From Gordius sp. MW1 (lineage: Eukaryota > Nematomorpha > Gordioida > Gordea > Gordiidae), in the NCBI GenBank assembly GCA_964036665.1, contig OZ038527.1:27997901-28061900 (forward strand): a stretch of 64,000 nucleotides of DNA, read 5' to 3'. Below are positions 30,960-63,064 of this stretch, one piece after another. The notes beneath the pieces are model-generated. The model saw nothing but the letters and a program-made list of their open reading frames with translations. It had not been told where the DNA came from and did not search any database. The translations under genes were made by a program, and so were the position numbers. Numbering within the stretch: position 1 is the first letter of the stretch; each line of letters opens with the position of its first letter.

Positions 30960-33900
30960 ATGTTTTTGGTACTATTAGTGTGGAAAAATATTCAAGTATT
31001 CAAAAAAGATAAAGTAAGTTTACCAACAATTATTATTTTTATCTATAACATATAAATATAGGTGGATTCAATTCTTCACATGTTGACTCCATTATTTTTG
31101 GTCATGCCCGTTGTCTACATTAGATGGGGCTACGGAGATCGGGCATTTTTACGTCAATCGCCTTGTAAGTATTTTATTCTAATTTTTTATATTAAAGAAT
31201 ATAAGGTCAAATTCATACTTTTATACGTGAAAATTTTAAATTCTTTTAGATTATAAAGTTTAAAATTGATTACAAAATTTTGCCTTACCCTTTGCATGTA
31301 TAGAAACACAAGTTATAACATTTTATTAAATAAAGCAGCGAATTTCAATTTAAAAATTATAACCATTGATTATTCAATATATTTCCTGCGCCATTGCTCT
31401 ATGAAGTTTTAGGTTAGTATAAAGAATAATTTGCAATAAATGTAAATTTTGCATTTTTGAAAATATTAGTAGAGCGTGCTAAATATAAAAAACTCGATTG
31501 CGAAAGTATAAATTGTTAGTTAAAATCAATAAAAATAAATTTTATCTGAAAAACAAATATTTGTTGTAAAATAATTTGCAAATAAAAAATAGTCTTTAAA
31601 CACATAATGTTTATTTGAAAGATTTTTTGCTCGTTATTAGCAAATTAATTTTTCCCTTTTAGAATAATTAATTTATTAAGTTATATATAAGCCAGTAGAT
31701 AAAGGATTGTTGGTGGGTAGAACAAATATAAAAATAGAACGTCTGCGTTTTACAATCACGTGATTATTTTTTATAACAAAAAAGTATTAAATCTTCTGCG
31801 TTTTATAATCACGTGATTCTTTATTATAACAAAAAAGTATGAAATCGTCTGCGTTTTATAATTATAAAAAGAATTTTTAATCGCAACATATTTTCCGCTC
31901 AACAACTAACCCACAGATAGCAACTTATTATATAAAACGCAATTAAGAAGTGATATGGTAATTAAAAAGAAGTTTAATTTATAATTTTGTCTAAAATAAA
32001 ATTTAAATTAGTTAACATTTGATGACTTATAAATGTTAGCACCTCGCATAAAACGTTTTCTTTCTATGAAATATTATTTAATTTCTCAAAAAGTTTTTAC
32101 TTAACCGTAAAGATATAAATTTGATTATTTGATGTTAATAAAAATCTGATATGCTAAAACTAAAATAAAAAGCCAATAAACTTTCTCTGCCAGATGCCTA
32201 GAGGCACTTGCTTATGTTTAGCACGATTAAAATGATAACTAGATTTTTAGTTAATAGCATGAATATTAAAGACAAATACTATTATGGGCGCTTTCATCTT
32301 TGACATAATTTGCTACCATTCTTCTTTTTCTTTATCAGTTATTTGGTCCCACACGGAGTTTATTTTAATAAGTTTCTTCCAAATTGACCGGGTGAGTGCC
32401 ATGTCTTTACTAATCCCTTTTGTTTTCATACTTTTCGATTTACGTAATATATATGCCCATACCACCTTATCCTATTTTTGTTAATGATGTCCGCTATAGG
32501 TTTAATACAAGTCATTCGTCATATGGTCCAGTAGTATACTCCAAGCTACACCGTGACATTTCATCTGTGTGGTTTGTAATAGCTTTCCTTCCGTGGTGTT
32601 TCTGCGTTTTATAATCACGTGATTCTTTATTATAACAAAAAAGTATTAAATCGTCTGCGTTTTATAATTATAAAAAGAATTTTTACCGCTCAACAACTAA
32701 CCCACAGATAGCAACTTATTATATAAAACGCAATTAAGAAGTGATATGGTAATTAAAAAGAAGTTTAATTTATAATTTTGTCTAAAATAAAATTTAAATT
32801 AGTTAACATTTGATGACTTATAAATGTTAGCACCTCGCATAAAACGTTTTCTTTCTATGAAATATTATTTAATTTCTCAAAAAGTTTTTACTTAACCTTT
32901 GTAAAGATACACATTTGATTATTATTTGATGTTATTAAAAATCTGATATTTTATTAGGCTAAAAAAAGATTAAACTTTATCTGCCATATACCTATAGGCA
33001 CTTTTAAGCTTATATTTACACGATTAAGATAATAACTAGATTTTTAGTTATTTAAATAGCATATATAAGACACAATTACTGTTATGGGCGCTTACATTGC
33101 TACCATTCTTGTTCTTCTTATCCGTTATTTAGTCCCACATGGGGTTTGTATTAATAAGTTTCTTCCATCTTGACAGGGTGAGTACTAGAGACCTGCAACG
33201 GGCCTGTTTAGGTCAGTCGGCGCCCGTAATAAAAATTTAAAAGCCCGGGCTTATCAAAATATTAAATTATAATGGCCCGGCCCGCTAATTTTATAAAAAG
33301 CCCCGGGCCCGTAAAATATTTTTATTTTTTTTGTTTAATTTTTATTATCAATATGGTAAAAGATATGTATATGTTAAAATTGTTAATAAAAATATTGTAA
33401 GAATAATAAATTGGTAATTCCCGGTCACTCGAGCACTTCTATTTTTTAAGAAACGACCTACATGGAAAATTTTTTAGCTCCGAGTGCACTTCAGGATACA
33501 TGAAACCATATAAGCCGAATAAACTTTTAAAACCCTTATTTGGTTATAATGTTGTTAATAAAGTTAATTAGCGTCTTTGCTTTTTCACCCTTTCAAATAA
33601 TTAAGTTATTGATATAAAATGAAAAAACAGTAATAAAAGTACCTTGAAGAAATAAATTTTAGAATTTGTTTTAAATTTGTTAATGATAATGAGATATTTT
33701 TGCATTTGGCCGGTGTCAGATAAAGTAGAAGTTAGGAACGGTCAGCATATTTGCAGGGAATTACTTTGCCAGTTTCGCAATCATTCCTTATAAATTAACA
33801 ACCTAGACAAATTGCCCAAAAGAAATTCACAAAGCAGCAAATATAAATAGCAATTAACCAGAATTGTGGCTTCTGGTCGGGTCAGATAATTAAATGTAAG

Positions 33901-36900
33901 CAACGGTCAGCATTAATATGCAGGGAATTATAGCCACTTTTTCAATTGTCCAATATACGCCTCTGGGAAATATTCGATTCGAGATTCGATTCGAATTCGG
34001 ATTCGATTCGAAATATCGAATCGAATTCGAATCCATACGTCTAAGTTTCGATCGAATATTCGCGCTGCTAAGATTCGAAAATCCGAATCGAATCCTTGAA
34101 AAATCGAATTTTATTTTTTGTAAGTTTAATTTATATGGACGAGACTCAAAATATTCGGCTATTTTTATCTTACCGCATTTTATTTTTCCTGCTCCAGTTT
34201 AAATAAGTTTAATTAAAAAATTTTAAAACTTACAAAAGTTATGGAGAACGAGGATCACAATTTAATTGAATTATGGACTTTGATAAAAACTGCAAAACAG
34301 CCCAAAGATATTTCACGATTAAAGGCTATATGTAAAGAATTTGACCCACCAATTAATTACATAAAGGCAAAACTTGACATGGAAGTCAGATGGAACAGCA
34401 GATCATGCTAACAAAATGGCCAAACAGAAAATTGAAGATATATAGCATTCAATAAGAAGACAGTCTTATAAGCGAGTGTGGTCGATTTAAGGCTCAATAT
34501 TTGAGTGCTTATCACCAGTACATGGCATATGGTATAGAAAAATTAAAGATGAATTGGAAACTGCTATAAGAAGTCAGCCCAGTTTTGTATCAACTAGCGA
34601 GGTATCAACACTGGATCGTCTATTAAGAGCGACATGATTTTTGCACATTGAATGTTGAGCCTTTACAATGGTGGAAATCGAATCAACGTCGTTTTCCAAC
34701 CATTCAAAAATTGGCATAAAATCTTTTCTCTATACCTGGATTAATTACCCCGTGCGAAATAATATTTTCGACCGGAACCAATTTATTGACCAAACACAAG
34801 CAATCGTTTAATGATGAGTGTTAGGAAGATAATTTACCTTAAAAGTTGGCTAAAAACGGTTCTTGATTGTCCTACACATATCGCCATCGATTTTTGTTCG
34901 CTTTTAATATTTTTATTTTCGATGTGTGTATTTTTAAAAAAAAAAATTAATTAAATTTTAAATGTATATGCAAATTGAAAATCATAGTAGTCTTTTTGTG
35001 TTTTTTAATACTAATAAAAATAACTCGAATCTTCATTTTAATATTCGACGAATCTCGAATCAAATATTTTTAAAAAAAAATTCGAATCCGAATCGAATAC
35101 CAGAAATATTCAATTCTATTTGAAATCCAGAGGCATAGTCCAATGCATAGCAACAACCTAGATAAGTTGCCCAAAGAATCTCATTAATAAGGGTAACTTG
35201 TCGGTCACAAAAACAATAATGGTATTTGAGTTTGGAGAGGTCGAAAAAAGTAAAGCCAATTAGCGGTCAGCAAAATAAAAAAAAGTCTTTTACAAAAGTA
35301 TAAGTCCACAGCCATTAAAAATCCGTATCACGGCAATTATTAGAAAATTACAAGTTAGACAGGACAGGATGGACAGAACGGATAGCCAAAAGAGAGCCAT
35401 TAAATTGCATAGCAATTAATATAAATAATCTTTAATAATACTAAATTAATTCACTCAATATTGCTAGAGGGTATAAATGGGGAGGCAAGGATGGGCAGCT
35501 GCCAAAAATTCTTGGTGGAAAAAACATTTTTTTACTCTATCTAAACTGCCCCCGCTCTAATTTAGATTGGCTCCGCTCATGGGATTACGTATATAAATTA
35601 TCTTTAACATTTATAATGCGGGTTGAGATTGATGTATTAATGAACTAGGATGGAAAAAGAATTTAACTTTCCTTGTTAATTTATATAACATAAAATAATT
35701 ATAAATTAGAACATTATAAAAACACTTTATTTTAAACTAAATCTAATTAATTTTTTAAGGGGCCTTAAGTATAACTAGGCCCGGCCCGAGCCCGTTAAGT
35801 TGTATATCGCCCCGTCCAAGCCCGGCCCGTGATTTATTTTTAAACAGAAGCCCGTCCAAGCCCGGCCCGGGCTTTTAGGCCCGTCCGCGGCCGGGCCTTG
35901 CAGGTCTCTAGTGAGTACCATGTCTTGACTAATCTCTTTTGTTTTCATAACTTACGTGACACGAAGTCGTCCTCCTCCTCTTCCCAGGTACCTCCATTTC
36001 TAGCACTTTTTGATTAACGTCATTTAGATGCCCATACCACCTTAGCCGACTTTTGTTAATGATGTCCGCCATAGGTTTAATACAAGTCATTTGTCATATG
36101 GTCCAGCTTAGTATACCCCAAGCTCCACCCTGACATTTCATCTGTGTGGCTTTTAATAGCTTTCCTTCCGTGGTGTTTAATGCCCATGTTACTTCCATAG
36201 AGTAACACCGATTTTACGATGGGTTTGTTTCTAAGCGAATCGTTCAAGGACAAGGTGGTGCAAGTCAAGCGATGTTCAGACAGGTCAATGTGATGAATAT
36301 TCAAAATCAATAGTATTTACTAAGCGTTAGCGCCTGTGCTTCCCAAATTGAGTGAATGTTCTCAGAGAAAGGCACATTCATGGATTCATTGGCAAAGGAA
36401 ATACATAGAATATGACTGGAGTAGATGTTAATTATTGGGCGGATTTCAACGCTCACGTAGGAAAAGATCGCCTCGGGTATGAACATAATCATGAAAATTT
36501 TGGGCACGGTCTGACGAAAGAAGAAAAAAACATATCCAAGTATCCCAAGCATACGACATAACGATTGTTGACACCTATTTTCAAAAACGCGAAGATCATC
36601 TCATAGATGTGGGAATCATTTAAGTCAAATTGAATATATGCTCATATGGCGAAAAGACTTATGGAGTATCAAGGATTGCAAAGTAATACCGAGAGAAGAA
36701 ATCGTCAAGCCACATCGTCCTCTTGTTATGGATCTTGAGAGAAGAGTATTTCCCGAAAGAAAAAAGGTCTATGAACCTCGAATTCGATACGAAAGGCTAA
36801 AGGATACGTCGACGAAGGAAGAAAACCATCAAAAAGCCTCCTCACTCTTGGGTCCAAGGAAGTTGCAAAGGGACGTAGACGACGATTGGGAGACGCTATC

Positions 36901-39900
36901 TAAGGACATTAAGGAAACAGCGATTTATGTTCTAGGACAGACCAAAGGAGGCAAAACTATGAAAAGGGAACTATGGTGGTGGGATCAAAAGGTTAAAGAT
37001 TTCATCGAAAGAAAGAAATCTATATAGACGGTGGCATAAATCAAAAAAGTCGGAGGATTATCAAGAATATAGGGACGCAAGGGCCGCAAAAAAGCCGTTG
37101 CAAATGCGAAGAATGCTGCGTACACCGAGATGGCAAACAAACTGGATCATAAAGGGGGCGATAGGCTTATGTACAAATTGGCCAAGATAAGGGAGAAGAA
37201 AAGTCGCGATGTCGGAGTTCTTAAAATAGTCAAAAACGAGGGTCAAACCTTATTCAAGCCGAAAGAAGTGATGGAAAGGTGGAAAGGATATTTTAAGAAA
37301 CTTATGAATATTGCAAATGACAAGGATTCTCTTCCCAAAATTGAGCCAAATATAAGCATGGTCGGACACTTTCAGGAAGATAAAGTTAGGACACAAATGA
37401 ACAAGATGCAAAAAGGAAAAGCAAATGGCCCAGATGGAATACCTATGGAAGCATCGCTCGGATGTCGTGAAGAAGGAGTCACCACCATGACGAACCTCCT
37501 TAACAAGATATTGGTTGAAGAGCGAATTCCTAATCAATGGAGAGCTAGCACGATTATACCCTTATTTAAACGAGAAGAAGACCCTCAGGACTGTGGCAAT
37601 TACAGAGGTATCAAGCTAACTTGCCACTCCTTGAAGCTTATGGAAAGGATCTAGTAACAAGGCTGAAAAACGAGGTGGAAATATCGTAATCAATTCGGAT
37701 ATGTGGGCAGCAAATCCACAATCGACCCAATCTTCGCCCTAAGACAAATGATGATAAGTATGGTGAAAAGAGGAAAGACCTACATAGGTTTTTATCGACT
37801 TAGAGAAAGCTTATGACACGGTCCCCCGCGATTTAATATGGTGGTGCCTGATAGAACAAAATATCCCTGACGCATATATACGGCTTATAAAAAATATGTA
37901 TGGAGCCTCAAACTCTTGCGTTAGGACGACAGTTGGAGACACTAAACCTTTTCGGGTTAATATTGGATTACATCAAGGCTCTGCTTTAAGTGCCTTTTTA
38001 TTTAATATAATTCTAGACACAATAACGAGGGACATTCAAAAGCCATCGCCATGGTGTATGCTATATGCCGATGATATAGTACTATGCGAGGAAAAAAGGG
38101 AGAAAGTATTCGAAGAGCCGAAAAGTGGTCAAAGCGCTTAGCTGGATATGGCTTAAAGGATAACGATCGAAAAACGGTATACATGGAAATGAACGGTACA
38201 GGCACCCCATCCCTGGATGACCATCTAAAGTACCTAAAAGTAGACAGGTTTACATACCTCGGCTCGATGCTACATCAAGAGGGAGGTTGTGCAACGGAAG
38301 TCAATGCCCGGATCCAAAAAGGATGGCTTAAATGGCGAAGTATTTTTGGTGTAATGTGCGACAAGAAAATGCCAATATGGTTGAAGAGCAAAGCTAACAA
38401 ATCCATCGTATGACCGGTGCTAGTGTATGGAAGTTAAACATAGCATACCACTGAAGATAAGTTAATACAAGCCACAGAGATGAGAATGATACGGTGGAGC
38501 TTGGGGTATACTAAGCTCTACCATATGACGAATGACTCTCATGATAAAATTGGGTATTCAACCTATGGCGGACATGATTAACAAAAATCGGCTAAGGTTG
38601 TGTGGGCATATTCTAATAAGGAAGACGAATGATTTAAGTCTCGAAAAGTACTGGACATGGAATCCTGCGGAAGAAAGGAAGAGGACGACCTCGTGTCACG
38701 TGGAAAGGGCAAGTCGACCAAGTTGTGAAATCAAAAGAGATTAGTCAATACATGGCGGCACTTACCAGGTCAATATGGAAGAAACTTCTCAAAATAAACC
38801 CACGACTTTGAGACTAGATACTTGATAAAGAAGATGAGCTTAAAAAAATTTATCGTAGAATATATCTGCAAAATTTGGCTTATTTTTATCAAACACTTCT
38901 TTTGAATATAGATAATATTTTAGATGCCCGTGGGCTTCCAGTACTCCAACTTCCATAATATGAAATATTTCAATCTATTTTTAAATACAAAAACCCATTA
39001 TCATAAGCTTATTTACTTAAATTATCTTGCGCACTTTGATTTTTCTATAAGTCTAATTTTGATCACTGCTTTTATAACTCTTCACCCAGAGATGATATAA
39101 GATAACATTATAATCAGTATCTCCAAAAATATTAAAAAATAGTTTAAGGAGTTTTTACTTTAAAATAGATATTATAAAAGAATAAAAATTTAGTAGACTA
39201 AAAAATCATAAAAATATAAAGTCTGTTTATAAAGTAACTTTATAAAAACTAAAATAATTGAATCTGACCCTTAGGAAATATCATTTTTTACACAAAATTT
39301 ACTGATTTTATAGCTTTATAAAATTTCTTTTTAAACAACTTTTAGATTTTTTTCATATCCTTAAAACCTAGCCTTCTATGAAATATTTATTTCTAAAAAT
39401 TAAAAAAGTTGAAAAACTGTAAAAAAAATGGATCAACAAAAATAGAATCTTTTATTAAAAATAAAGTGTCAAAACTCTTTATTTTTGTTTTAAGGTATTT
39501 TTCTGCCAATTCGCCAAAATTTATATGATCTTATTAATTAAACCATATAAAAATAAAGAAGTTATTTTGTTATGAGCCAAATTTTGACCAAATAACCAAT
39601 ATAATATTTTAATTTTAAAAATAAAAGCTAGAATATAAAGCTTGCAAATAAAAATTGATATTATAATACAACCAAGTTATAGCTATTTAAAGTTTGAGGT
39701 CTTCATGACCTGACCCCCTTTACCATCCGTGTCCGCATTTTTGACCTGCTGGGTGCCTAGATTAAATCTATTTTGTAAACATTTGTCCATTACCAGTTAT
39801 TTATATAGCCAATTTTGTTTATTTAGTTTAAAATCATTCTTAAAATTTAAAACACCGTGATTATGTTACTACATGTTGCATATGCCGGATTTTATTTCGT

Positions 39901-42900
39901 GGGTTTTACATTTTTCTTTCGAATATTTGGTAAATTTTAGATGTGATAAAAGCAATAGCATAATTACACCTTTAAAAAAAGGTGTCGTGAATTTGTACAC
40001 AGTCTAAATTACATAGTTTTACGTTATATTAACTCTGGTGTAACGGAAATGTAATGGAAGAGAATCGAAATAAAAATTAATTTGAAGATACTTACACAAC
40101 ACATTCTATTGTCAACTCTAAATCTCAATTTATGATTTTCATGCTTTGCCCTAAAAATCATCAAAACAATGTTATGTCCCCAACAATTTACAACTTTTAA
40201 AACTAACAAGAATTTCTTCAACAGATTAGTTTTCAGCTGTTTTACCTTTGCAACTCTTTAGTATTTGATGCTACATACATACATAGGTATAGGTTGACAT
40301 TTATAAATAATTTGTAAAATTGTTATTATAACACCTGATCAGGGGCGTACGCAGGATTTTTCTGCGGGGAGGGTTTTTAAATCAGAATCATATTAATTTT
40401 ACAATTTATTTAAATACAAACACTTTCACAAAAAGTATTTATTATAAACGTCATATCATATAATTTTATAAAAAAAATAGTAGGGAAAAAATTATTTGCG
40501 CGATTTAGATAAAAATTCATTGATTATATCTTGAGTGTCTGGAATTAAATCTCTATGAATATTCAACAAGGTCAAACCTATAAGCCTATATAAAATTAAG
40601 AGTTTGTAATAAAATGTATTTACCTCTCTTGCCCAGTTGTATTCCTCAAGTAAGTTTTAAGTCTTCTCAGCGTAGAAAAACTTCTTTCATTAGAACACGT
40701 TGTTACTGGGAGTGTTGCTAAAATCTGGTATAACACTCTTATATTTGGATATAGAAGCAGCTTGGAATTATAATCCGACAATGCTTTTAGTGCATTAAAA
40801 GGCAGGACTTCAGGGTTACAATCTTTAAAAGATTGATACCAGAGTTTAATCTCAGCCTCATAAATTTCTTGATTTCCATTCAAATCATCCCCATAAAAAT
40901 TCGCTAAATTCAAAAAGTTCGCCAGTTTAACTTCAGATAGCTTTACAGGTGGTTGTAGTAGTAAAGAATGAAATCCCATGAGAATTTGTTTATTCTCAAG
41001 AAACCTTGTGTCCATTTCTACCAAAAATGTGTCTAAGAATGCATTATACAGAGTTATTCTATAATAAGCCTCTGGGGTTTGTTGGACATTTCCTCTGGGA
41101 ATCGAAATATCAAAGTCATATTGTTTTCCCATCAATGTGACATCTTTAAAAATCCTGGAAAACTCTACCTGAGAATTATTTCTAATTAATTTAATAGCTT
41201 CCACAACGTTTTCGGCCGCATTTATTGCCTGTGATAAGTCCAGGTTAACGCTTTGCAAATGAATGCTAAGATTTAAAGTATAAGCAAAGATTTGCTTTAG
41301 TGTGTGTAATGATAACCAAAAATGACCAGTTTTAAGTGCTGATACCAATAGCATGGCACCCGAAGAGGAATCATTGTCTGCCCATTCACTAATCTGCTCA
41401 AGGGTTGTGATGATTGAATCTCTTAATTCAAAAAAGCGGTTTATTGCTTGATGCTTTTGAACCCATCTTGTTTCACAGAGAGTTTTTAATTTCAAATTTT
41501 TGGAATCTGAAGACTTTACAATTGAATCAAACAAATTGCCTTTTAGGCGTTGATAAAAAATCATTCACCTTTTTAACAATCCCTATAAATTGGAAAAAAT
41601 TAGATATCAAAATTTAAAATATACCTATACAATTCCGGATATGTGAGATTTTGCAAGAATCGGCAATGCTTAAATTTAATACATGCGATGAACAGTGAAT
41701 GTAGATTGCAGTAGGATAGACATTTCTTATGTGAGTTTGCAATCCATTTTTTACACCACTCATTGCTGGAGCACCATCGTAACCTTGTCCTCTCAATTTT
41801 GTTGTATTTATGTTCAATTCTTTTAAAGTCTTCAGGATCACTTCAGATAGGCCTTTTCCAGTCATATCATGTATATCAACATATAGCAAAAATTCCTCAT
41901 TCACAACGATTGGTGTTGAATCCACATCTAAATATCTTACCACTAGAGCCATTTGTTCCCGAGTTGAGATATCTGTGGTTTCATCGACTAATATTGCAAA
42001 AAAGGGAGCAGCGTTTATTTTTTTTACAATCTGGGATTGTATCATATGTGATATTATAGAGATGATTTCATTTTGGATACGCGGGGAAAGATACGTTGCA
42101 TTTTTAGGGCATTCTGTCAAAGCGTGGCATACTTTTTCGCTGTTTTCTGCTAAAAATATTAAAAGCTCACGGAAATTTCCTTCGTTCGGATTTTTCTTTC
42201 TTTGCATATGAAGTGGCAACACACCATAATCAATATGACCTTTTTAAAAATTTAATTAAATGTTTATATTATATATTACCTCTAAGGGCAATCCCTTGTT
42301 TCCCACAGAAAATGATTGTATCAATTATTATAGCGAGTGCCTCTCTTAATTTAAATTTGTTAATCCTATTTTCCTTTGATAATAGATCACCTATAGAATC
42401 CTTTTTGTTCGCGTATATATTTTCAAGTGAAGTGAACATCTCAATTGAATGTTTGTGGTATTTATTAGCAGAATGACGTTTAAAATCTTCCAAAGCATTT
42501 TTCCATTTTTGAAATGGACTTGTAATGAAGGCTTTTAACTCCTGATGAGATCCATATCCACCGGTCCTTTTGCCCATTATAACACAAAATTTGCAAAAAG
42601 CACCATCTAGAGGCATAGAGTAGGCCAACCATGGCCATTGTTTGAACTATGTATAGTTAAATTTGAGATTCCGTTTGCCCTTGGGAAAATCAAATTTTAT
42701 ATCTGGCTTCCAGATTAAATTCATAAGTTTCATCTTCTGCATATCTTCTATATTTTTTTTTATAAAGTTTGATATATCATAATAATTAACATTGTTCATT
42801 AAAATATCAGGTGGTGATGTTGATGTACAAGAAGCTTGTTCCACATGAACTAAATCTAAAATTAAAATCTAACTATAATCATTTAAAAATCTTACCACTA

Positions 42901-48900: not shown

Positions 48901-51900
48901 AATACTACTACAATGGTTTTCTCATTCTTCAAGACCTTATCGACACTGCCATTATCGATGTTTTCACTAATAATACTCTTGAGAATGATTCTTATATACA
49001 CAAACCAGGCTTGTACCTTCAGCAGACACCATATCCCTGCTATAATCGTGACGAGTAATCAATTAATATTTTGATAATTTTTGAAAATAAGTTGCAAAAA
49101 GTAATAAATTATTCTAGGTTTCTAAGGTCGATAAAAACGCCTATGAGTCATCATTTAAACTTATGTTGGTTACCATATGTAGCACTTATAATAATATCTA
49201 TGGTAGAAGAGAAAGAGAACAAACGTAAAATGTATTACAAAATGTTTGGAGTGAGCCACACGCTTTGGACAATCTCTTGGATATTTACTTACTTATTTCC
49301 AGCCATAATAACTTCTATACTAATAACATCACTCCTATACTATGGGGGCATATTTACATACGCCGATAATTTGATCATATTCATCATTGTTTTTTTGCAA
49401 GGATTCACCAGCATCTCATTTGGCACCTTCATTGCAAGCTTGTTCATTAAAGCTAGATCAGCTGTTGTCACCGGTTTTTTCACCTATCTTCTCACGAGCA
49501 TATTCCTCAACTACTTATCCTTACAAGAAATATATTTATATGTAAGACATTAAATTTTAGCTATAACTTAATAACTACCTTAAAAGAGGAATACCCCCAG
49601 GTTTTAGTCCGTCTGATTATTTACTTCTCTTTCCTAATGAGATTCTCTCGAGTCAATTTTTTTAAATAAAGACGTTTTTAATGCAATGCTAATTTAGAAA
49701 ATATAATTATTTAGCATTTTAATTTATATGTTATTATTTTTTTAATTACACTAAAGATTTGATTTGAACTATATTAAGGTTCCTCTACCTGTCGCCTGCT
49801 ATACGCAATTAATGGAATTAATTATAAGCAAAGAAATTGAACAAGATGGTTTGCAGTGGAATAATTGGACATCAAAAAATATTTTAAATGTCTTTGTTTT
49901 GTTCTTATATGCAGAAGTCTATATAGCATTAGGATTGTGCGTTGAGGCACTAACTAAAAAATTGAATTTCGGAAGATTTCAAAAAATATATGCTATTACA
50001 TTACAGCGCATTAAGCGTATAATGGGAATAAAGAAAATAACGAATCCTGACATGGAAATTCCTGATAAACCTGATTCAAATATTTTTGAACCAGAGATTG
50101 GCAATGAATTTAAAAAAATACTTTCTTTCCAAAACGTGTATAAGGTTATTTAAAGAATTTATCATTTTAAACAAAATAATAATTATTATCAACCATGACT
50201 CAGGCTTTTTCTTAACTATTCTAATAAACACCATAGCCTTTAAGTCATAAATTCAATTAATTATTATTCACTGCTAACTTTACTTTTTATAGAAGACAAA
50301 AAATAACACTATGTTGTTGGAGAATATGACCTGCTCATTTTATCAAAATGAAATCACCTATTTATGTGCTGATTCACCGGCTACGATTGACACATTAGAT
50401 GCTATTATTAAAGGAGAAGTAACACCTGATTCTGGTCAAATTTTGTTTGAATGCGACGACACAGAACCCACGAAAAGGTTACTTTATTATTAATGCATAA
50501 TAATCAATATTGCAAAACATGGAATAGGACTAACATTGGATACGCGTCGGAGAGTGTTTGCTATTTTAAGGAATTAACTGTCGAGGAAAATTTATGGTTT
50601 TTTGTGAAACTCGCTAAAACCAAGAGTAACGTGCGCCACCAAGTAAAAGCAATAATTTGGATATTTTATTAATAATTACATATTAAAATACCTATTTTAT
50701 TAAAAATATTAGTATATGTTTTTTTAGATGATAAGAGGTTAATTTAGGTTTTAAATTATTTATATAATATAAAAGTTTAATGTAGGTGCAGCTATACAAA
50801 CTCGAACTAACACCTTTTTAAACTTCTTTTCTCTTCACAAAGATATCCTTAATAATTGTAAATACAACTATTATTTAAGGTAAATGAAGCTAATACTACA
50901 TTTAAAACAATGGTAAATATGCAATATTTTTCCAAAAATTGGCATAAAATGTAAGTTTAGCTAGTTATATTCAATTGTTTTAATAACGAATATGTCGCTT
51001 TATGCAATTTTTATTCCATTTTCGATAAAACTTAATTTGTACGAGCCATACGATCAGTTATCTATTGTTTAATCGATCGTTCTTTTGTTTATTTTTATAC
51101 CCTTATTATAACATGTTAAGGTTAAATGGGGATTTAAAAATTCATGTATATTAAATGTGAGTTTTCTCATTATAATTTGCAACTTGCTGAATTACTAAAA
51201 TGTATTAAACTTTTAATTGAAAGTGACATTTTGATTATAGGACGTGCAAAATATTTTAAAAGTTTGTCAACTCTACGAATACCGCCATTGCAAAATATAC
51301 GAATTGGCTCGTAACAAGAGAATTTTGGTAAATTTGGCAATAGCATTTGCTGGAGAATGTCGGGTTGTACTATTGAAAGAAGCCTTGAAAAATTTGGAAT
51401 TTGGGTTTTATAACGATTTATGCTCTTTGCTTATAGACCAAAAACAAAGTATAATAATTGCCTATTTTTTAACCCTATATAATATTAGACAAAAGCATCA
51501 TTATACTCACCTCACAACTTGTACCCGTAACCACAATATGTGATAGAATAGCCTTTGTCATGCAAGGAAAACTTCTTTGTTCTGGGTCAGAAACACAATT
51601 AAAATTGGCATTTACAAAAGGTTTGAAATTATACATCAGTATAAATGACATCATGGAATCTGAAAAGCTCGATGCCGTGGTAAATTAAAACTGTTTATTG
51701 TGTTTATGATACAAAATCACATCAAAAGAAATTGATCGAAATTTAATTTTTATTATAAAATAGAGCGAGACCCAAACTTTACCCGTTTTGCCTAAAGGTA
51801 TTGTAACTTAGTTGTTTTTATATATTATGAAAAAAGATTTTAACTTTAATGGGCATTTTAAAATTGCATTTATATTATATTCCAGAATTTAAAAACGATT

Positions 51901-54900: not shown

Positions 54901-57900
54901 TATATTCAAATTATTTTAATTTGCCTTGATGTTTGTTATTTTTATGATTTGAATAAAATTTATGTTGTCTACTATTAATTTAAATGTGCAACAAGATAGA
55001 CTTAATAAATTTTAATAGATTATTAAAATATTGGCTAATAATACGTATGTACAAACAAAGTATAAACATAACAAATTCTTTACATTCTTTTTTGTCATTA
55101 CATCAAGATAATAAAAATCTGGCAAAATAGATTTAAATAATAATAAACAGGATCTTCTTCTTTTAAACATTTAGCCTCTTCTATATCAATCAGTCTATTA
55201 AGTTGATAAACAGATTTCTTTTGTTACAAAGTCTATTTTCTTTATTATCAAGATCATCTAAGGTACTTGTGGTGAGAGTTTCATCAAAAACCTTTTCCAC
55301 AAACATGATGTCATTCATTTTAAAAGTTTTCCCCCTGTACTCCCTTATTTTAGTGTTTTCCACCTTGATTTGCAACTTATAAACAACTATATATAATTTA
55401 ATGTTTAAATACCAGGCATATTACAAGCTTCATCTAAATTATCACAACATTTTTTCATCTCAAACTCAATCATACCTTCACACCATATAATTTTATCTTT
55501 TCAACGCTTTTGATCAAATATAAACTTTGCTAATACCTAAAACTCAAAATTCATATAACATTTAAGCTTACGAAAAATGTTGCATCCTACAAAATCGCTG
55601 TTATGTTATGCGTCTAAAATCGAAATCTGCTGTAAATCGGATATTAAGACACGGCTATGTTAAAACACGTATGACGATTTTTGCTGCGCGTTAAAATCCG
55701 ATATTAAGACAAGCCCTTATAGTGTGTCGGCCTATTTTTATGATGATCCCCTCTGTAACGAAGTGGCCGGCCGGTATATAGCCTAAACTCCCGTATTCTA
55801 GGCTCCCGTATAACACTAACTCCGATTTTAAACCAAGAGACTAAGTCAAAAGACAAAGACTGTTTTATTAGGTGGATAAGGCTTTATAGACACATAGCGA
55901 AGGATATATATAAAAGTAGTAATCAAATAAGTGATAAAGTACGGGGTAAACTAAGGTGTATTCAAATGGCTACGCGTATATTCAAATATCTGTGACCGCG
56001 CTAAAGTATATGCAAATTAAGCTACACTACACCCTCCCCCTTATGGTCTTCTTAAATCTTTGTAGATAAAATTACTATAGGGCGATTGTTGTTAATTTAA
56101 TAGCATCGCCACATGTGCCGGATTTTCTGGCTACCCTTCGCTTAGACTTAGACTATTAATACTTAGCTGCAAAGCACACAACTTGTTGTTGACAGTAACA
56201 AAATATTCGATTATTTATTGGTGTTGTAAAAAGACCTGGGTTTTTAGCCGACCTTTGGAGTAGACCTTTAGGCTTAGTCGAAATTTGAAAAACAGACCAA
56301 AGGTTGTTAGGGTATTTAATTTAGAAACCTTTAGGCCTAGTCATAAGAATTCACCTACGACCTTTGGCATGGTTTGGTTTGGAGTGGGGGAAAATAAATA
56401 CTACGATTTGATATTTTGAGGATGTTTTTGTGACTTTGAAAATATGCAATATAGATACAGGGATCTTTTTAATTGCACTGATTTGATTCTAATAACTTTG
56501 AGGGTGATTTATAATATTGATACCTAGTGGTAAAATATAATTTAAAAAAATTATTTGCCAACTTAATTTGGTGACAATTGTCTTATATGAAGCATAATTA
56601 ATTTTTTACAAAAATTGGTGGGATAGGGTGTCATAAAATTGTGCAAATATAGTATTTAAATCTGTTAACATATCTTGGTGATTGTGGTGTTTCCCCCTCC
56701 CTAAATTATTGTTACTTATTTTTATTACTTTACGCGTAACACACGATTGTTTATTAGCTTATTTATTTTTGTTGGTTTGTTTATCCCCCCCCCCCCCCCC
56801 CACACACACGGATATAATTATACGCTATTGTGCCAAATCCCTCTACGATTAAAATAGATTTTATACCCATTTTGATCGAGCACTTTTAATGGCGTTCGCG
56901 TTATATTAGTATAGAATCTAAAGCGTATTTTATTAATATGAATTTGCAAGCGCTTGTTATTATTTTATTCGGTTCTTTTAAACAGAAAAGCGCATTCATA
57001 TTAATTTTTATCGTAGTGTTATTATAAAAAGAAGAAAGCACATTCATCATTATTCATATATAATTCATTATTCATTTATTCAATATAATTTTATTTTGTG
57101 TCGCGTAGTCATTAAATAAAATATTAAATGGGGACTTTAGAAATTCTCAAGTAGATATAGTCCTTCGCTTTTGGGGGAGGGCCAAAACCTTTGGATGGAA
57201 AGAAATTATTGTCGCGTCGTGTAATTAGAATAAAATAATAATAACCGTTCAAAAACAATTTTAATTTTTTCGCGCGCGAGTCGAAAGGATTTATTAGTGA
57301 TAAATGTTATAATTGTCTTTTGGAAATCAAAATAAATTTTTCAAACGAAAATAGATGGTTCAAAGTGTCACAAAATTACTTTAAACATCAAAATTATATT
57401 TGTCAACCTAACTTGGTGACAGTTGTCAAAATCGGAGTTTACAGAGCTAACAGAATTCTTTTAACAAAAATTAATGGGTAAAGGTCTCACAAAGTTAATA
57501 TGAATATAAAACCAACGGGTCGGGTCTCGGACGGCCCATGCAGGGCTGTACCTACAGGTTACACTGGTACCTGTCGAAATTAAATATTTTAACTATTTAG
57601 TCCTACTTCTGTGCATTTAAGTATTAAAATGTGAAAGGGATCTGAAAGAATTAGCATTTTACCTGCCCACTCATAGAACATAGTAGAAATAGAAATGTCT
57701 TTAATATTGAAGAATTATAAACATAAGTGTAAAATTATTTTTTTTTATTTTACTGAATAACTTGCTTTAATGTCACCAATGTCGATAGGCTGCCGTTGTG
57801 ACAACTTTTTTTTCATAATCTCATCACTACGATAATTTTATGTAATTTATTATTTTTTTTGATATTATTTAGATGATTATCCTCTTGAGACAATAAAGCA

Positions 57901-60900
57901 AATGGTGTCTAAATTTATAGGAGGGATCGAATTGATTGGCCAAAGAAACAAAGTTTATGAATTTACTTTACCCTATGACTCTAAAGATTGCAACTGTATA
58001 TCGACTAGCAAAGCTATACAAAAATTTGTGACCTATGTAGAAGAAAATCAAGATACTTTGGGGATACATAATATTGAGCTTTATGATTCTTGTATTACAG
58101 ATGTAAGTAGTATAGTTTAAACATTAAATTATAATTACTTCGTCACAGGTTTTTGAAGTTTTAAAAGGCAGAATTATGGTACAAACTTCTCCAGGTAGTC
58201 GCGTGCAAAATAAGGAAACATACCTCGATCAAAGTTTATTTATACATATTTTATAACGTTGAAATTTATTGAAAAGATATTGTCAAAAGTCTGGCGAAAG
58301 GAGTTAAAAGCTTATGGATTCTTCAAAGCATTGACAGAGTTAAACATAAGTGTTTATATACACTACGCAGCAAATATTTTCTATACCAAATTATCCTTTT
58401 CATTTCAGTATTGACCTCTTCAACACACTTGCATAAACTGCATAACAATGAGCAAGAGAATATATATCCAATACCTTTAACTACTTTGATGCATTCAACT
58501 CATCGGAGTGTTTTTCAAAATAAGTACTACAACATTCGAACCTTGCTTTTAATTCTTAGTGGTAACCACTATACATAGATCTAGCGATTATAAATTGTGA
58601 GAGAGGAGGGGTGGGGAGAAGGATGGCACAAAGTTTGGAACTAATTTAGGCTCATATTGTTTTGATATTTAATCATAATGTTAAATATATGAGTGCTGTT
58701 TTATAATTCTACATATGATTTAAGTTAAAACCATCAACAATAGACGGCTCAATTGTCTTTTAAAAATTAATTCATTTTTTGTCATCTATCAAGATGGCTA
58801 GCAAAATGTTTATTATGCTCTGTATGTATATCTATTTCATATAGTAATAAAAATAATTTAACAATTTATAACAAAAATATAGGAATAATAATAGAATAAT
58901 TCATAAATATACTCAACTTATTAAGCACTATCTACACTTAAACTTTAAAATACTTTTTGCTTAATTTTTCGGGTTTAAAGAACTCTTAAAATAACTATTA
59001 ATTGTTATAACCTAGTATATGGTTATAACGTTCAAGCTAATTGACAAATACAATCCATCGCTATATATAGTTTAGGTTGATTATCAATACGGCGGTTAAT
59101 TTTAGCAAAACTTATATCTTGAATATATAAACGTTGAGAAGTCTAACTGTGTATAATTGAAACATTATCTACAGAGCGACATCAACACATATATATATAT
59201 ATAATATATATAATTGATACTAAGTTTCAAATAATTATTCAGAATTAAAGAATCCCCTAATAAAACCATCGATAAAGACATTTTAAACGAGAGCAAAGAG
59301 TTTTTTGGAAAAAATACTATGGCAATACTTTATAAGTATCCTGATACTTTATATATCAAGAAATTAAATGAGTGTATATATCGCATTCCTCATAAATACG
59401 ATAGCAAATGTCACCTATCTCAATCTATCAACTCCGAAATAAGCCCTTATGCGTCCAACATTAAATGTAGCGACTTATTTGATCAAATTTGTTATAAATC
59501 AAAGAAACCTAATCAGAAATTAGGTAGTAAACGTTCAATTTTGCCTAGTAAAAACACTAAGTGTATTTGCCTTAATAAAGATGGTCAAAATCAATGTTTT
59601 TCAAAACGTGGCTCTCAAGCATCTATCAAATCTTTGTCCAATTTAATTACTGCAGTCGATACTAAAAAATTAAGTAAATATTTTGTCAAGAATACAAACA
59701 ATAAATTTGATATAATTGGAGGCTACGCTAAAATTTATCCACAAAATGTCACATTATCACTACAAGACAAGTATAAAAGTGCATTGGTTGTGCAAGAAAT
59801 TTTAAGTAAAGCTCTGTCAAATTTAAAAAAACGAGAGACACTAAAGTTGCTGTTAACCAATACAAGGCATATACATTATTTGCAATATCTTACATATGCT
59901 GATATCGACTATGTTAAAATTTGGTATGATAACAGACTAAAAATTGGAATGGCATCCTTCCTAACTTTATTCGACACATCATATTACAGAACTCTCATTC
60001 GATTCAAATCCGAATCAACAAGCAATGATTCCCTTTCAACTGAGAATTACAAATATACCGCGAATATAAAGGTTTCAGATTACACAGACGAGATTAATAT
60101 ATATAATGGGGTTGATTATGGCATTCTTACCATAAATCATCCTATTTTTAACGAAAAGTCACACATAAGGTAATCTTTTTAAAATTAAACAAAAATAACC
60201 CCAACTTTATATTATAATGTTTAAATTAATATTTTTACATTGTGTATATTTTTAAATTCAAAATAGGAGACTAATGATTACCTATGGAACTCAAATAGCA
60301 ATCATTCTTTTAACTTTAAACATTTTAAATGGGTTAATTAAAAGTAGCTCTTCCTATGAAGTAATGGAAAGACTTGAACCCTATCACGCCATTGGCTATA
60401 CGATTGCTCATTTAATAAGCAACTCTATTATACAATTAGCATTATTGGCATCAGCCTTTATACTACAGACCATAATTGGGCAAGCTTATGATCCATTTGT
60501 CATACTATTTTTTGTTTCATTCAGGTATAAAACATATTAAGTATTATTTGGCTAAAACATTACAAACCACTTTTATTTACATAGCTTAGCGTATATTCCT
60601 TATATGGGTTTGCTCTGTCGTTTATTTAATTTCATTCGTCCCTCATTTATATGTAATGTTCTGATCACCATGTTATGCGTCTTGGCAGACTTAACATTAA
60701 AGATACTGCCAAGATATTTTAAAAAATGGAGTGCAGTTACAATATTGTTTCCTCCTTTTAGTTTTTTCAAGGGTTTGCTATTAGTGCACAAACATCATTT
60801 TCCGAAAGTTGAGAGGTAGTTTATATATTTCATCTTAGAAAATGTGTTATAGTGTTTCATATAGACACGCGATTTACGATGAATCTCAAGAAGTTGTCAG

Positions 60901-63064
60901 ACAATCCTATTCATTTTTATTCTTTGCAATAGTCTATAGTGTCATTGAAATCGCAATATGGGTTAAAAAGCCGTGGCAAAATAAATTGTATTGGGGAAAA
61001 ATCAAAACTAGGTTTGCAGCTTTAAAAAGTCTGATGAAAAAGCATTTACCTATGAAAAATAAAAGATCTGAAATAAATTCCGAAGATCCACTTCAAGATT
61101 CAGATAACTTAAGGAAAGATAATAATTCAATGGAATTCAAAATTTGGATGAAGGATGTAACCACTACCTTTTTAAAAAATATTAACATTCAAATACATAA
61201 TAAAAAATGTTTTGGAATTCTGGACCTCAATAAAGCCAATTCAAGTATATAATTTTTATAAACAACAACATTATATATGTATCAAAATTATGATAATTTT
61301 TTAGATTGCAGAATCTTCTATGAATTATTAAGTGGAAAAGTGAAAAACTTCAAAGGAGATGTATATGTGCATGGTTATAATGTTCGAAAACCAAGGTGTA
61401 GTAGTTTCAAATTTATTGGCTATTATCCAACCAGTCAAATTAATAAATATTTAACTCCCAGAGAAACGCTAGTGTCATATGCCCATATGTTAGGGATGGA
61501 TGATGTTCATCAGGTTAATTTATAACTTCACATAGGGCATAATTAGCTATGCGCACTTTATATTTTTAAATTATTACCCCAACCTTTGCAAGTTGTTTGC
61601 GCCTTTAAAAAAATTAATAATAAGTGCAAGCTTTACCGAGAGAACAATTTAATACAGTTGAGATTATAAGATCAATGTGTAATGAGGGAAATTAGAAGGT
61701 AGTGTGATTTCTTATTATACATAAAAATTTAACCATCTCATATTTGTTAATTATTTTAGCTTTGATATTTAAATTGTCTCCCTTAAATTCCATAAAAAGT
61801 TTAAGAGTTGGCCCACAAAACCAAGTATTTATTCTATTTTATACTGGATAGCTCTATATATGCTATAAAAGTTGATTTTAGATAATCTGTTAACTATAAG
61901 AGTTAAGAACTTGTACTTTAATACAGAGAATTTTAATTATAAAATAAACAATACACGACGTGTCGCATTTATAAATAATAGCATGATTTGGAACGTTGAT
62001 AAAAAAACCTAATTGATATTTAATTCTGTAAAGTAGAATAAGTTACTAAACTTATAAATATATTTATTATATAGGATAAATTTACTTGAAGTCAAATATT
62101 TAGGTTTCCCGCCTCTATCACTTAGTATAGGATATAGGTTTTTCTCCCAAGTTAAATAACACTTTAAATTGCTAGTTAAACTAAAATCAAAAAACACCTC
62201 CTAGCAAGATTATTTTTACCAAGACTAAGTGAGTATTGATGAATGACAATGTGCACCATCATGAGTAGGAAGGTATCTCAAGATTTACAATAATAAGTAA
62301 GTTAAGGTAAACGATAAATCGGGTAATAACCATTTCCATAAAAACTGTAACATTGTTGTAATTAAAGGATTTAAAGTCAGAATTATTTTAATCCTTACAA
62401 AGATAACTAAATCGTTTTGTGAAGTTTAAATATAGTAAATTAACAATCCTGCTAGGTTTATCCATGTTAACAATATTTAGCAGGTAGAAAAATACTTGAG
62501 GGATTTCGAGATTGCGGAAGATACATGGATACATCATTGTACCAACGAAACTCGTAGAAAAGTGTGTATCGCTATAACACTCATGAGCAATTATAGGATA
62601 GTTCTATTGGAAGATCCTTTTGAAGGTGTGCCATTATTATTTTTTGTGTATATAACATTTAGTAATCTTATCATTACTAAATTAGTGTTTAGTATTATAT
62701 TTTTAGAATATTTAAATTTTTCAAAGTGTCTAATATGTATAAAAACATTAAAATCTATGTCGTTAAAGGAATAATCGCCCATTATGATTTATTTCCCAAC
62801 CAATTTTACATATTTACCATATTTGCCCAATTATTTAAACTATTTTAATAATATTATACAGGTTTAAACGGAAATATACGAAATGTCTTACGAGATTATA
62901 TACTTCAGAAGATCAATCAAGATCATATTGTGTTAATATTTATTAGTAATTTGGAAAGCTATGATGTATTTTCCGAAATTGCAGTGTTAGTTAATGGACA
63001 ACTTAAATTTAATGGATTGCACAAAGAATTATTATCAAGGTATTCGCCATATATCCGAATATGA
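30960..63064 (+). CDS. Full-length ABCA-type transporter with degenerate ATPase motifs
   Basis: Exons with matching GT...AG phases: 30960-31013, 31062-31164, 44665-44797, 44940-45028, 45080-45099, 45135-45188, 45433-45685, 48256-48369, 48409-49054, 49118-49541, 49779-50144, 50293-50477, 50528-50642, 51241-51448, 51489-51679, 51764-51797, 57873-58102, about 58149-58178, 58235-58349, 58409-58561, a gap not resolved (58562-59242), 59243-60169, 60267-60524, 60585-60815, 60853-61244, 61305-61513, 62484-62625, 62862-63064. The N-terminus MFLVLLVWKNIQVFKKDK is the ABCA pattern (LLWKN...RR). The product would be about 1950 aa in the order TMD1-NBD1-RD1-TMD2-NBD2. ABCA proteins move or extrude lipids across membranes using ATP. 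Here every ATP-binding motif is altered although the frame is open, so transport by hydrolysis is unlikely. Intron 2 is 13.5 kb and intron 16 is 6.1 kb, both full of transposons; others are 37-63 bp. An RD2 tail after NBD2 was not found and could lie beyond the window. Confidence 0.85.
31741..32602. repeat. Tandem segmental duplication, unit 1 (in ABCA intron 2)
   Basis: The sequence from TCTGCGTTTTATAATCACGT (about 31791) through GCACCTCGCATAAAACG (about 32040) recurs almost unchanged at 32603-32905. Each copy is followed by a minus-strand RTE LINE 3' fragment (32325-32602 here). At the start, a short unit (TCTGCGTTTTATAATCACGT...AAAGTATTAAATCG) is repeated two to three times. The unit is about 0.86 kb. 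Confidence 0.8.
33186..35910. mobile_element. hAT element with GGCCC-rich subterminal repeats
   Basis: TAGAGACCTGCAACGGGC at the left and GGGCCTTGCAGGTCTCTA at the right are inverted. The perfect 8-bp duplication GTGAGTAC flanks them (33178-33185, 35911-35918). Subterminal DNA is rich in AAGCCCGGGC/GGCCCGGCCC copies. No intact transposase. It contains a second hAT at 33956-35137. A one-ended relic of the same family is at 52540-52685. Confidence 0.88.
33956..35137 (+). mobile_element. Nested hAT element with dead transposase
   Basis: Ends TACGCCTCTGG and CCAGAGGCATA, flanks GTCCAATA/GTCCAATG (7 of 8). Just inside both ends is a simple-like run of ATTCGATTCG/CGAATCGAAT units in inverted orientation. 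The plus strand from ATGGAGAACGAGG (34241) gives MENEDHNLIELWTLIKTA and later, in broken frames, PLQWWKSNQRRFPTIQKLA (about 34662) and the IFSTGTNLLTKHK block, the hAT C-terminal dimerisation domain. Several stops; inactive. Confidence 0.8.
36410..38830 (+). pseudogene. RTE-type LINE (endonuclease and reverse transcriptase), decayed
   Basis: Plus-strand frames in ABCA intron 2. The endonuclease end contains ADFNAHVGKDRLGYEH (about 36450), then SQIEYMLIWRKDLWSIKDCK and VIPREEIVKPHRPLVMDL (36620-36730). The RT domain follows: KGKANGPDGIPMEA (37417), WRASTIIPLFKREEDPQDC, NQFGYVGSKSTIDPIFALRQ (about 37690, after a frame break), DLEKAYDTVPRDL (about 37800, after another), GLHQGSALSAFLFNII and MLYADDIVLCEEKRE (38060) with the catalytic YADD. 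The tail reaches CGACCTCGTGTCACGTGGAA (about 38687). At least four frame breaks, so inactive. It lacks the 5' start. The motif set fits the RTE/BovB group. The fragments at 28.3, 32.3 and 33.1/35.9 kb are antisense copies of its 3' end. Confidence 0.85.
38840..40331. other. Intronic spacer
   Basis: AT-rich part of ABCA intron 2 between the LINE and the hAT. No gene or repeat recognised. Confidence 0.5.
40492..43712 (-). pseudogene. hAT transposase, ZMYM1/DUF4371 type, one stop and one frameshift
   Basis: Minus-strand exons: 43712-43619 (start MDSSINLNKRKGAIFKYC), ten 33-nt microexons, 42855-42280, 42239-41625, 41582-40624, 40585-40492 (ends IINEFLSKSRK, TAA). Introns are 38-42 bp and phases agree. 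The second long exon has the TTF-type zinc-finger region (LDGAFCKFCVIMGK, WKNALEDFKRHSANKYHKHS) and ETIIFCGKQGIALRG-like IDTIIFCGKQGIALRG. The third has FAILVDETTDISTREQMALV and LRGQGYDGAPAMSG, the DDE-type catalytic core. The last have the hAT dimerisation motif LPVTTCSNERSFSTLRRLKT. Two defects: TAG at 42647-42649, where a Trp is expected before FKQWPWLAYS, and an extra base in a T run near 41555-41560. This copy is probably inactive, though only just. Confidence 0.87.
42856..43618 (-). repeat. Tandem microexon-microintron array in the transposase gene
   Basis: A 72-73-bp tandem repeat. On the minus strand each period reads TTTTAG acceptor, 33 coding bases, GTAAG donor, then a 39-40-base intron: 11 introns and 10 microexons between the flanking exons. 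Each microexon starts in phase 1 and ends in phase 1, so any number can be added or skipped without loss of frame. The peptide unit is (D)LVHVEKGSAS, with variants EKGCTS, VYVEKG and VHGEKG. One donor is altered (GTAGA, near 43325). The first exon ends and the following exon starts with the same peptide (VNHVEKGFAS / DLVHVEQASC), showing where the unit came from. Confidence 0.88.
43891..43942. other. G17/C21 homopolymer hairpin
   Basis: A run of G followed, 14 bp later, by a run of C inside the right end of the hAT. It can fold as a perfect G:C hairpin or a quadruplex on either strand. Run lengths may be unreliable in the assembly. Confidence 0.8.
43966..44664. other. End of ABCA intron 2
   Basis: Non-coding. 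It includes two isolated hAT-type ends (GCTGGCTACGCCCATG, about 44138, and CCCTGCATACGCCAATG, about 44489). An alternative upstream AG at 44629-44630 would put ATG at 44631 in frame with exon 3, but the phase from exon 2 fits the AG at 44663-44664. Confidence 0.5.
44665..50144 (+). CDS. ABCA segment: extracellular domain 1 and TMD1
   Basis: Exons 3-11 of the ABCA gene. Exon 3 begins CHYSPKPLLSAGFLNFFYGY, then ICNYNNTC, matching the ABCA start of ECD1 (ECHFPNKAMPSAG.. ICN.NNPC). Exon 8 gives TWKTLKPLFVNKLLFTP and exon 9 FLAGIVFIDM, VRYKIRMD, YYYNGFLILQDLIDTAII and LYLQQTPYPCY, all ABCA ECD1 hallmarks. Exon 10 codes for the TMD1 helices (MVEEKENKRKMYYKMFGVSH, then hydrophobic spans) and exon 11 for the last TMD1 part, GLQWNNW and the linker to NBD1. 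ECD1 is shorter than in vertebrate ABCA1. The first ECD1 introns are 37-60 bp scale apart from the transposon-bearing intron 7 (45686-48255). Confidence 0.85.
46095..47622 (+). mobile_element. Helitron-like non-autonomous element
   Basis: Ends AAAGCAACGCTTGGCCGGGC then ACAGCTAGT: a hairpin followed by CTAG|T, the Helitron 3' signature. The interior has three related units with CCCGATTCGCGCGAAA(A/C)TTTACCC...GGGCGGCCAGG (about 46160, 46783, 46930). It lies in ABCA intron 7, in sense. The 5' border is set only by the start of the repeat region. The same type of 3' end, reversed, is at about 4422 and 4889. Confidence 0.65.
46378..46532. repeat. 54-bp tandem repeat, three copies
   Basis: CTTTTCTTAACGGTGACAAC followed by ATAAAATTTATGAATTAA occurs three times in a row inside the Helitron-like element, nearly without change, so the expansion is recent. 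Confidence 0.85.
50293..51797 (+). CDS. ABCA segment: NBD1 with all catalytic motifs lost
   Basis: Exons 12-16. After the A-strand VYKKTKNNTMLLENM, the segment FYQNEITYLCADSPATIDTL aligns with [20 protein letters not shown], so Walker A is gone (no P-loop Gly, no Lys). The Q-loop position reads GYASESVCYF (no Gln), although ELTVEENLWFFVKLA after it is well kept. The signature LSGGM is replaced by ELARNK in KIYELARNKRILVNLAIAFA. Walker B reads CRVVLLKEALKN (Asp to Lys, Glu kept). The H-loop region is IIILTSQLVPVTTICDRIAF, with Gln where His should be. LLCSGSETQLK follows as in ABCA. The fold-defining positions are kept, the catalytic ones are not. Exon joins at 50477/50528 and 51448/51489 use 50- and 40-bp introns. 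Confidence 0.87.
52540..52685. mobile_element. One-ended hAT relic
   Basis: GGCCTGGCCAGAGCCCGTTA...CAGAAGCCCGCCCAAGCCCGG...CCGTGCATGTCTCTAG matches the right end of the 33186-35910 element. No left end is found. Within ABCA intron 16. Confidence 0.65.
52950..53368. mobile_element. hAT MITE with GCCGATACC repeats
   Basis: TAGAGATGCACCGATACC inverted at the far end (GGTATCGGTGCATCTCTA), flanks GAAAATAG/GAAAATAT (7 of 8). The subterminal parts contain repeated CCGATACCGATACC. 419 bp, non-coding. In ABCA intron 16. Confidence 0.88.
54348..55716. mobile_element. PIF/Harbinger-type element
   Basis: GGGCTTGTCTTAATATCGG at the left and CCGATATTAAGACAAGCCC at the right, flanked by TTA on both sides (54345-54347, 55717-55719), which is the Harbinger target duplication. 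The 1.37-kb body has only short frames (54724-54978 plus; 55376-55190 minus), none recognisable as a nuclease, so it is probably a deletion derivative. In ABCA intron 16. Confidence 0.8.
55720..57872. other. Rest of ABCA intron 16
   Basis: AT-rich with no coding support. It contains a sequence with TGGCCGGCCGGTATATAGCC (about 55763), a C17 run followed by (AC)n at about 56787-56808, and a GC-richer patch (57520-57590). Confidence 0.45.
57873..60815 (+). CDS. ABCA segment: RD1, TMD2 and extracellular domain 2
   Basis: Exon 17 (57873-58102) carries the regulatory domain that follows NBD1: KVYEFTLPYDSKD, then FVTYVEENQDTLGIHNIELY, as in [20 protein letters not shown] of ABCA proteins. 58149-58561 are short exons leading into TMD2; their borders are less certain, and 58562-59242 probably hides one more. 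The 927-nt exon 59243-60169 is ECD2: Cys-rich first half, then VKIWYDNRLKIGMASFLTLF and GVDYGILTINHPIF, matching VKVWFNNKGWHAISSFL and YGITAFNHPL. 60267-60815 codes for the remaining TMD2 helices (LEPYHAIGYTIAHLISNSII; FPPFSFFKGLLLV). Confidence 0.78.
60853..63064 (+). CDS. ABCA segment: NBD2 with all catalytic motifs lost
   Basis: Exons 60853-61244, 61305-61513, 62484-62625 and 62862-63064. KKCFGILDLNKANSNCRIFY spans the splice at 61244/61305 and aligns with [20 protein letters not shown], so Walker A is absent. GDVYVHGYNVRK follows as normal. The Q-loop is IGYYPTSQINKYLTPRETLV (Gln to Thr). The signature YSGGNKRK is HCTNETRRK. Walker B reads RIVLLEDPFEGLNGN (Asp/Glu exchanged; D-loop lost). 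The H-loop is IVLIFISNLESYDVF with Asn for His. VLVNGQLKFNGLHKELLSR fits the end of the NBD. The frame ends TGA at 63062-63064, unless the GT at 63040 is used to reach another exon. Confidence 0.85.

Follow-up and report, generated by a model that had tools for sequence, protein, structure and literature searches.

A full-length ABCA-like gene of Gordius with nearly all catalytic motifs replaced in both predicted nucleotide-binding domains

What remains of an ATP-binding cassette (ABC) protein when the ATP-handling motifs have been replaced in both of its nucleotide-binding domains (NBDs)? The question is raised by a gene of Gordius sp. MW1 (Nematomorpha; assembly GCA_964036665.1), located on the forward strand at 30960-63064 of a 64,000-nucleotide stretch of contig OZ038527.1 (positions 27,997,901 to 28,061,900), which was analysed as a whole and is hereafter called the window; all coordinates below are window positions. 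The gene model comprises 25 exons, from an ATG at 30960 to a stop codon at 63062-63064, with 1,928 codons free of internal stops. From its sequence, we consider it probable that the gene encodes a full-length protein of the ABCA1/4/7 type, in which the ATP engine was lost at both sites and which is maintained by selection on the coding sequence.

Both NBDs were aligned with six human counterparts (ABCA1 NBD1, part of ABCA1 NBD2, and NBD1 and NBD2 of both ABCA3 and ABCA4), the reference letters being taken from PDB alignments. In NBD1, Walker A reads CADSPATID (50365-50391), with ADSPATIDT in the columns of GHNGAGKTT and both Gly and Lys lost; the Q-loop is GYASE (50538-50552; Gln to Glu), the signature ELARNK (51301-51318; SGG to ARN), Walker B VVLLKE (51364-51381; LLDE to LLKE, Asp to Lys) and the H-loop LTSQL (51506-51520; His to Ser). 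NBD2 is altered at the same places. Its Walker A, DLNKANS(N) (61223-61243), spans the junction of exons 22 and 23 and has DLNKANSNC for GHNGAGKTT, with Lys lost and a two-residue insertion within or just past the loop; the Q-loop GYYPTSQ (61418-61438) has Thr for Gln, with another Gln two residues on; the signature TNETRRK (62541-62561) has TNE for SGG; Walker B is VLLEDP (62601-62618; LLDE to LLED, i.e., DE to ED); and the H-loop FISNL (62939-62953) lacks His, with Ser in its place by an alignment in which a shift of one residue is possible. The D-loop Asp is Glu in NBD1 and Asn in NBD2. With the P-loop Lys and Gly, the SGG, the Gln of the Q-loop, the Asp of the D-loop and the His of the H-loop missing from both halves, each composite site is incomplete on both of its sides.

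The original prediction, made from this DNA alone, had held that Walker A, the Q-loop and the signature are replaced and Walker B altered in both NBDs, and the column alignment to ABCA1, ABCA3 and ABCA4 confirms this, with motif strings and coordinates rechecked. Its claim that the H-loops are replaced stands in so far as neither domain has a His, but the Gln and Asn that it named are the next residues, the aligned one being Ser in both. The loss of every catalytic motif, as it was worded, is slightly too strong: nearly all are lost, and the catalytic Glu of the NBD1 Walker B survives.

The losses are concentrated at the active sites. Invariant columns, defined by a residue in at least five of the six human NBDs with all agreeing, numbered 15 at the active site and 43 elsewhere. 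NBD1 keeps three of the former (Walker A Ala and Thr, Walker B Glu) and NBD2 a single one (Walker A Ala), amounting to 26 of 30 positions replaced, and the other columns are kept at 17/43 in NBD1 and 22/43 in NBD2. Retention thus differs between active-site and other columns both when pooled (4/30 versus 39/86, Fisher P 0.0019) and in NBD2 alone (P 0.0022). Identity of NBD1 to ABCA1 NBD1 is 59/219 (27%), with 27-28% to ABCA1 and ABCA4 and 22% to ABCA3; NBD2 shares 22-24% with human NBD2s, and the NBD1s of ABCA1 and ABCA4 share 140/207 (68%) with each other. Three blocks of the first extracellular domain (ECD1) and first transmembrane domain (TMD1) are 32% identical to ABCA1 (88/276), NBD1 being slightly lower. 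Patterns for Walker A, Walker B, the Q-loop and the H-loop had no match in the six frames of the whole window, and signature-like strings occur only twice, at 42804 and 63542, both isolated; hence the introns show no sign of a further, active NBD exon, within the limits of a search that overlooks motifs interrupted by an intron.

The predicted protein is nevertheless ABCA by descent, as judged from its closest sequence relatives, which are ABCA proteins, and it is as an ATP-driven ABC transporter, defined by mechanism, that its sequence appears to fail. The first half (985 residues) matches human ABCA1 (E 4.8e-77), ABCA7 (7.4e-77) and ABCA4 (5.6e-70); these matches, like the stop counts per frame below, come from an earlier two-part model of 985 and 956 codons. 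The NCBIfam model rim_protein, which we take to be that of ABCA4, was matched with E 1.2e-66, but at 224.7 of 4012.85 bits, far under the model cut-off. TMD1 was recognised by PF12698 in the open reading frame (ORF) of exon 10 (E 4.7e-11) and in the spliced model (1.8e-13), and by similarity to ABCA1 (6.9e-9). NBD1 matches PF00005 (E 1.2e-9), with ABCA4 NBD1 as best relative (4.9e-26); the best relative of NBD2 is ABCA3 (2.6e-25), its PF00005 match (6.6e-4) being under the cut-off. Weak Pfam matches of p47_phox_C, DSPn and DNA_pol3_delta to NBD2 were set aside. The best 13 PDB sequences for each of the first half, NBD1 and NBD2 are all chains of ABCA1, ABCA3, ABCA4 or ABCA7, as are the best 12 for the second half. 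Of the non-catalytic blocks said in the original prediction to be kept beside the lost motifs, YLQQTPYPCY and ELTVEENLWF were found as YxQQxPYPCY and LTVEExxWF, in common with human ABCA1, ABCA7 and ABCA4.

Is such a protein still under selection, or is the gene decaying, its frame open by luck or through recent loss? The latter is unlikely in our judgement, even if several facts suit it: only 20 (NBD1) and 23 (NBD2) of the 58 family-invariant columns are left, the gene lies amid transposon pieces, with reverse-transcriptase-like and hAT-like ORFs in a 13.5-kb intron, and no second regulatory domain (RD2) was found before the window end. Stops, frameshifts and broken splice sites, the marks of a pseudogene, are absent from the 1,928 codons and 24 introns of the model, all of the latter being GT-AG. 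Because the choice of exons itself favours open frames, a neutral simulation was added, in which ABCA4 NBD1 and ABCA3 NBD2 were left to decay, with an AT-rich mutation bias, until the non-motif invariant positions had fallen to the observed retention. Under its simple mutation model, which has no insertions or deletions and starts from human proteins rather than from the true ancestor, decay to the same divergence produced a mean of 18.9 stops and at least nine in each of 400 runs, against none observed. The 47 replaced non-motif invariant positions have a mean BLOSUM62 score of -0.30 (NBD2 +0.05, NBD1 -0.58) versus a neutral -0.99 (standard deviation 0.22; P 0.0013, 3,000 runs), i.e., residues were exchanged more conservatively than under neutrality, and a recent loss would not account for so many changed invariant columns. 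The simulation, which differs from a test of nonsynonymous against synonymous substitution rates (dN/dS), supports continued selection on the predicted protein after the motifs had gone.

A very fast-evolving ABCA that is still ATP-driven, binding and hydrolysing ATP through unusual residues, is considerably less likely again. The retained Glu in the NBD1 Walker B, the acidic pair ED in NBD2 and the fact that both NBDs still match ABC proteins would be in keeping with it. The loss in both halves of the P-loop Lys and Gly, SGG, Q-loop Gln, D-loop Asp and H-loop His argues against it, as does the requirement of ABCA4 for both of its NBDs (PMC11405800; statements on cited work refer here and below to the portions of the publications that were available). 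The absence of an ATP cycle is, on the motif evidence, strongly suggested.

The exon structure was rebuilt from stop-to-stop frames and raw sequence with bookkeeping of splice phases; the junctions are predicted ones. Phases are consistent throughout the 24 GT-AG introns, which range from 35 to 13,500 nucleotides, eight of them being 51 nucleotides or shorter, possibly an indication of the lineage, and the spliced exons with matched phases and no stops of the original prediction are thereby reproduced. In the two-part model the chosen frame contains no in-frame stop, whereas each half has 65-97 in either of the two remaining forward frames, and introns below 3 kb carry stops at 8.8% of codons. 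Exons 1 and 2 (30960-31013 and 31062-31164; GT-AG, phase 0) encode the start ATG, the first transmembrane helix (TM1) and the beginning of ECD1, residues 4-125 of the protein aligning with residues 17-138 of the ABCA1 chain. The 13.5-kb intron with the transposon pieces separates exon 2 from exons 3-7 (44665-44797, 44940-45028, 45080-45099, 45135-45188 and 45433-45685), which provide the first part of ECD1, placed by splice sites and phases and by alignment of the exon 3 block with ABCA1 ECD1. Its second part, including the YLQQTPYPCY block, lies in exons 8 and 9 (48256-48369 and 48409-49054), which align with residues 354-421 and 501 onwards of the ABCA1 chain. TMD1 is encoded by exons 10 and 11 (49118-49541 and 49779-50144; PF12698 and ABCA1 matches) and NBD1 by exons 12-15 (50293-50477, 50528-50642, 51241-51448 and 51489-51638; PF00005 and ABCA4 NBD1 matches). 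Exon 15 has two possible ends, 51638 or, with one small extra exon before exon 16, 51679; the extra exon, assumed at first, became unnecessary because of the alternative donor after 51638, which is the one used.

The second half begins with a segment in exons 16 and 17 (57873-58102 and 58149-58194), set by splice sites and phases and placed by order only, without a tool match, which we assume to resemble the first regulatory domain (RD1) of ABCA1. Exons 18 and 19 (58277-58523 and 59243-60169, the latter an open 927 nucleotides) occupy the place between RD1 and the second transmembrane domain (TMD2), where the seventh transmembrane helix (TM7) and the second extracellular domain (ECD2) are expected. 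Exons 20-22 (60267-60524, 60585-60815 and 60865-61244) carry the putative TMD2 helices: residues 485-682 of the second half contain successive hydrophobic segments. The last part of exon 22 (61121-61244) and exons 23-25 (61305-61513, 62484-62625 and 62862-63061) encode NBD2, by the match to ABCA3, and the stop codon follows directly. Across most of 30960-51638 the exons are collinear with ABCA1, as are those of NBD2 with ABCA3. The order TMD1-NBD1-RD1-TMD2-NBD2 given in the original prediction therefore has sequence support for the first half and NBD2, TMD2 and ECD2 being placed by position and partial hydropathy and RD1 by order. Exons 9 and 19 gave single-sequence structure predictions with mean pLDDT of 37.7 and 34.1, which were unusable.

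That the gene model is wrong, with active NBD exons elsewhere (as alternative exons in introns) or with exons of two genes joined, is the least credible explanation: the junctions at exons 7, 11, 15, 18 and 22 were picked among alternatives and an intron-split motif would escape a string search, but four of the motif patterns are absent from all six frames of the window, with the two signature-like strings isolated, and the exon order follows ABCA1 and, for NBD2, ABCA3.

A selected, ATP-free ABCA has to be weighed against several observations that count the other way. In TMD2/ECD2 (exons 18-22), phmmer at E<=10 returned no ABCA match and two unrelated matches only, and Pfam returned none at E<=1; the TM7 expected in exon 18 stayed under the hydropathy threshold used. 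RD2 was not found between NBD2 and the window end at 64000, an alternative donor after 63039, which leads beyond the resolved model, being a possible route to it. Several splice sites, in the five exons just named, were taken for keeping the phase where others existed. The contrast between active-site and other columns is not significant for NBD1 alone (Fisher P 0.22), and the same domain keeps the Walker B Glu. Finally, lipid release is absent from ABCA1-MM, a laboratory mutant of ABCA1 in which the Walker A lysines of both NBDs were substituted (PMC5906560), and ABCA1 thus sets no direct precedent for a useful role that dispenses with ATP.

The window has a GC content of 31%, and Rfam and tRNA scans of it gave no match. 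Within intron 2, reverse-transcriptase-like ORFs in several frames lie at 36572-38744 on the forward strand; they presumably resemble long interspersed nuclear elements of the RTE/BovB type, and the one ORF scanned (37073-37651) had no match to a reverse transcriptase family. The same intron contains hAT/ZMYM1-like ORFs on the reverse strand (40620-42868), with PF14291 (DUF4371; E 2.3e-23) at 41614-42243, which we take to belong to a transposon (transposase). This piece is adjoined by a 72-bp tandem repeat (42835-43644; 11.2 copies, 94% matches), and the intron between exons 7 and 8 harbours 2.9 copies of a 54-bp unit (46376-46530; 99%). Upstream of the gene, the reverse strand encodes a rhodopsin-family G protein-coupled receptor in a single open frame (7464-8474; PF00001, E 2.9e-32) and a homeodomain ORF (22016-22609; PF00046, E 2.9e-21). 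Possible exons of a sodium:solute symporter occur on the forward strand at 13262-17662, with a PF00474 match under the cut-off (E 0.0028; 13262-13744) and no match at 17348-17662. Two reverse-strand ORFs (2026-2499 and 28666-28965), whose proteins look similar by eye, are probably copies of one repeat.

If the ATP engine has indeed been lost under selection, as we favour, how might the protein work? The NBDs would neither bind ATP as ABC domains do nor cycle, and may serve as a static cytoplasmic scaffold, the ECD/TMD part residing in the membrane and acting without ATP. With both nucleotide sites lost, the protein should therefore stay locked in a nucleotide-free state. A scaffold or partner role would suit such a protein; most likely, it may be a partner or regulator, itself non-catalytic, to an active ABCA or some other membrane protein, with passive binding of lipids or other ligands as the next candidate. 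The retention for another role put forward in the original prediction fits the open frame, the greater loss at catalytic than at scaffold positions and the conservative replacements; a simple role in ATP-free lipid loading is weakened. More tentatively, and with somewhat less confidence than we place in the loss under selection, the gene may be expressed as a naturally evolved full-length pseudo-ABCA with its NBDs now a structural scaffold and the ABCA lipid-handling body working ATP-free, for example by restraining or assembling an active ABCA to which it is an obligate partner.

The predicted protein resembles human ABCA1, ABCA7 and ABCA4 in the order TM1-ECD1-TMD1-NBD1, in NBD2 by sequence, in PF12698 and in the shared blocks, and departs from them in the erasure of both nucleotide sites, in a TMD2/ECD2 that phmmer does not recognise and in the RD2 not found before the window end. 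Catalytic residues of one nucleotide site are also missing from the ABCC subfamily including CFTR, from ABCG5/G8 and TAP and from some ABCA, whereas in the Gordius protein the erasure extends to both sites and to Walker A. According to a review, a subset of the human ABCA proteins carries one such degenerate site, and degeneracy among full-length human ABC proteins is limited to NBS1 (PMC7756269). ATPase activity is needed at both NBDs of ABCA4 (PMC11405800), and the regulatory domains of ABCA1 and ABCA4 were argued to be latches keeping the NBDs close (PMC8815970). The closest parallel in form is ABCA1-MM, likewise full-length and dead at both sites, in which trypsin still cleaves the ECDs as in the wild type (PMC5906560); it differs by two designed changes as against 26 of 30 active-site positions naturally replaced in Gordius. 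Among the matches listed from the open-access literature, the available portions describe no ABCA in which both NBDs are erased, and those of the ABC inventories of Tigriopus, Bemisia, Bombyx and Tetranychus mention full, half, incomplete or pseudogene ABC proteins and no doubly erased ABCA.

ABC inventories based on NBD motifs could miss or discard genes of this kind. If the reading is true, a selected, doubly erased ABCA would separate the work of the ABCA membrane body itself from its ATP-driven work, and would offer a natural test of the lipid-loading models of ABCA1 together with a new case of a pseudoenzyme.
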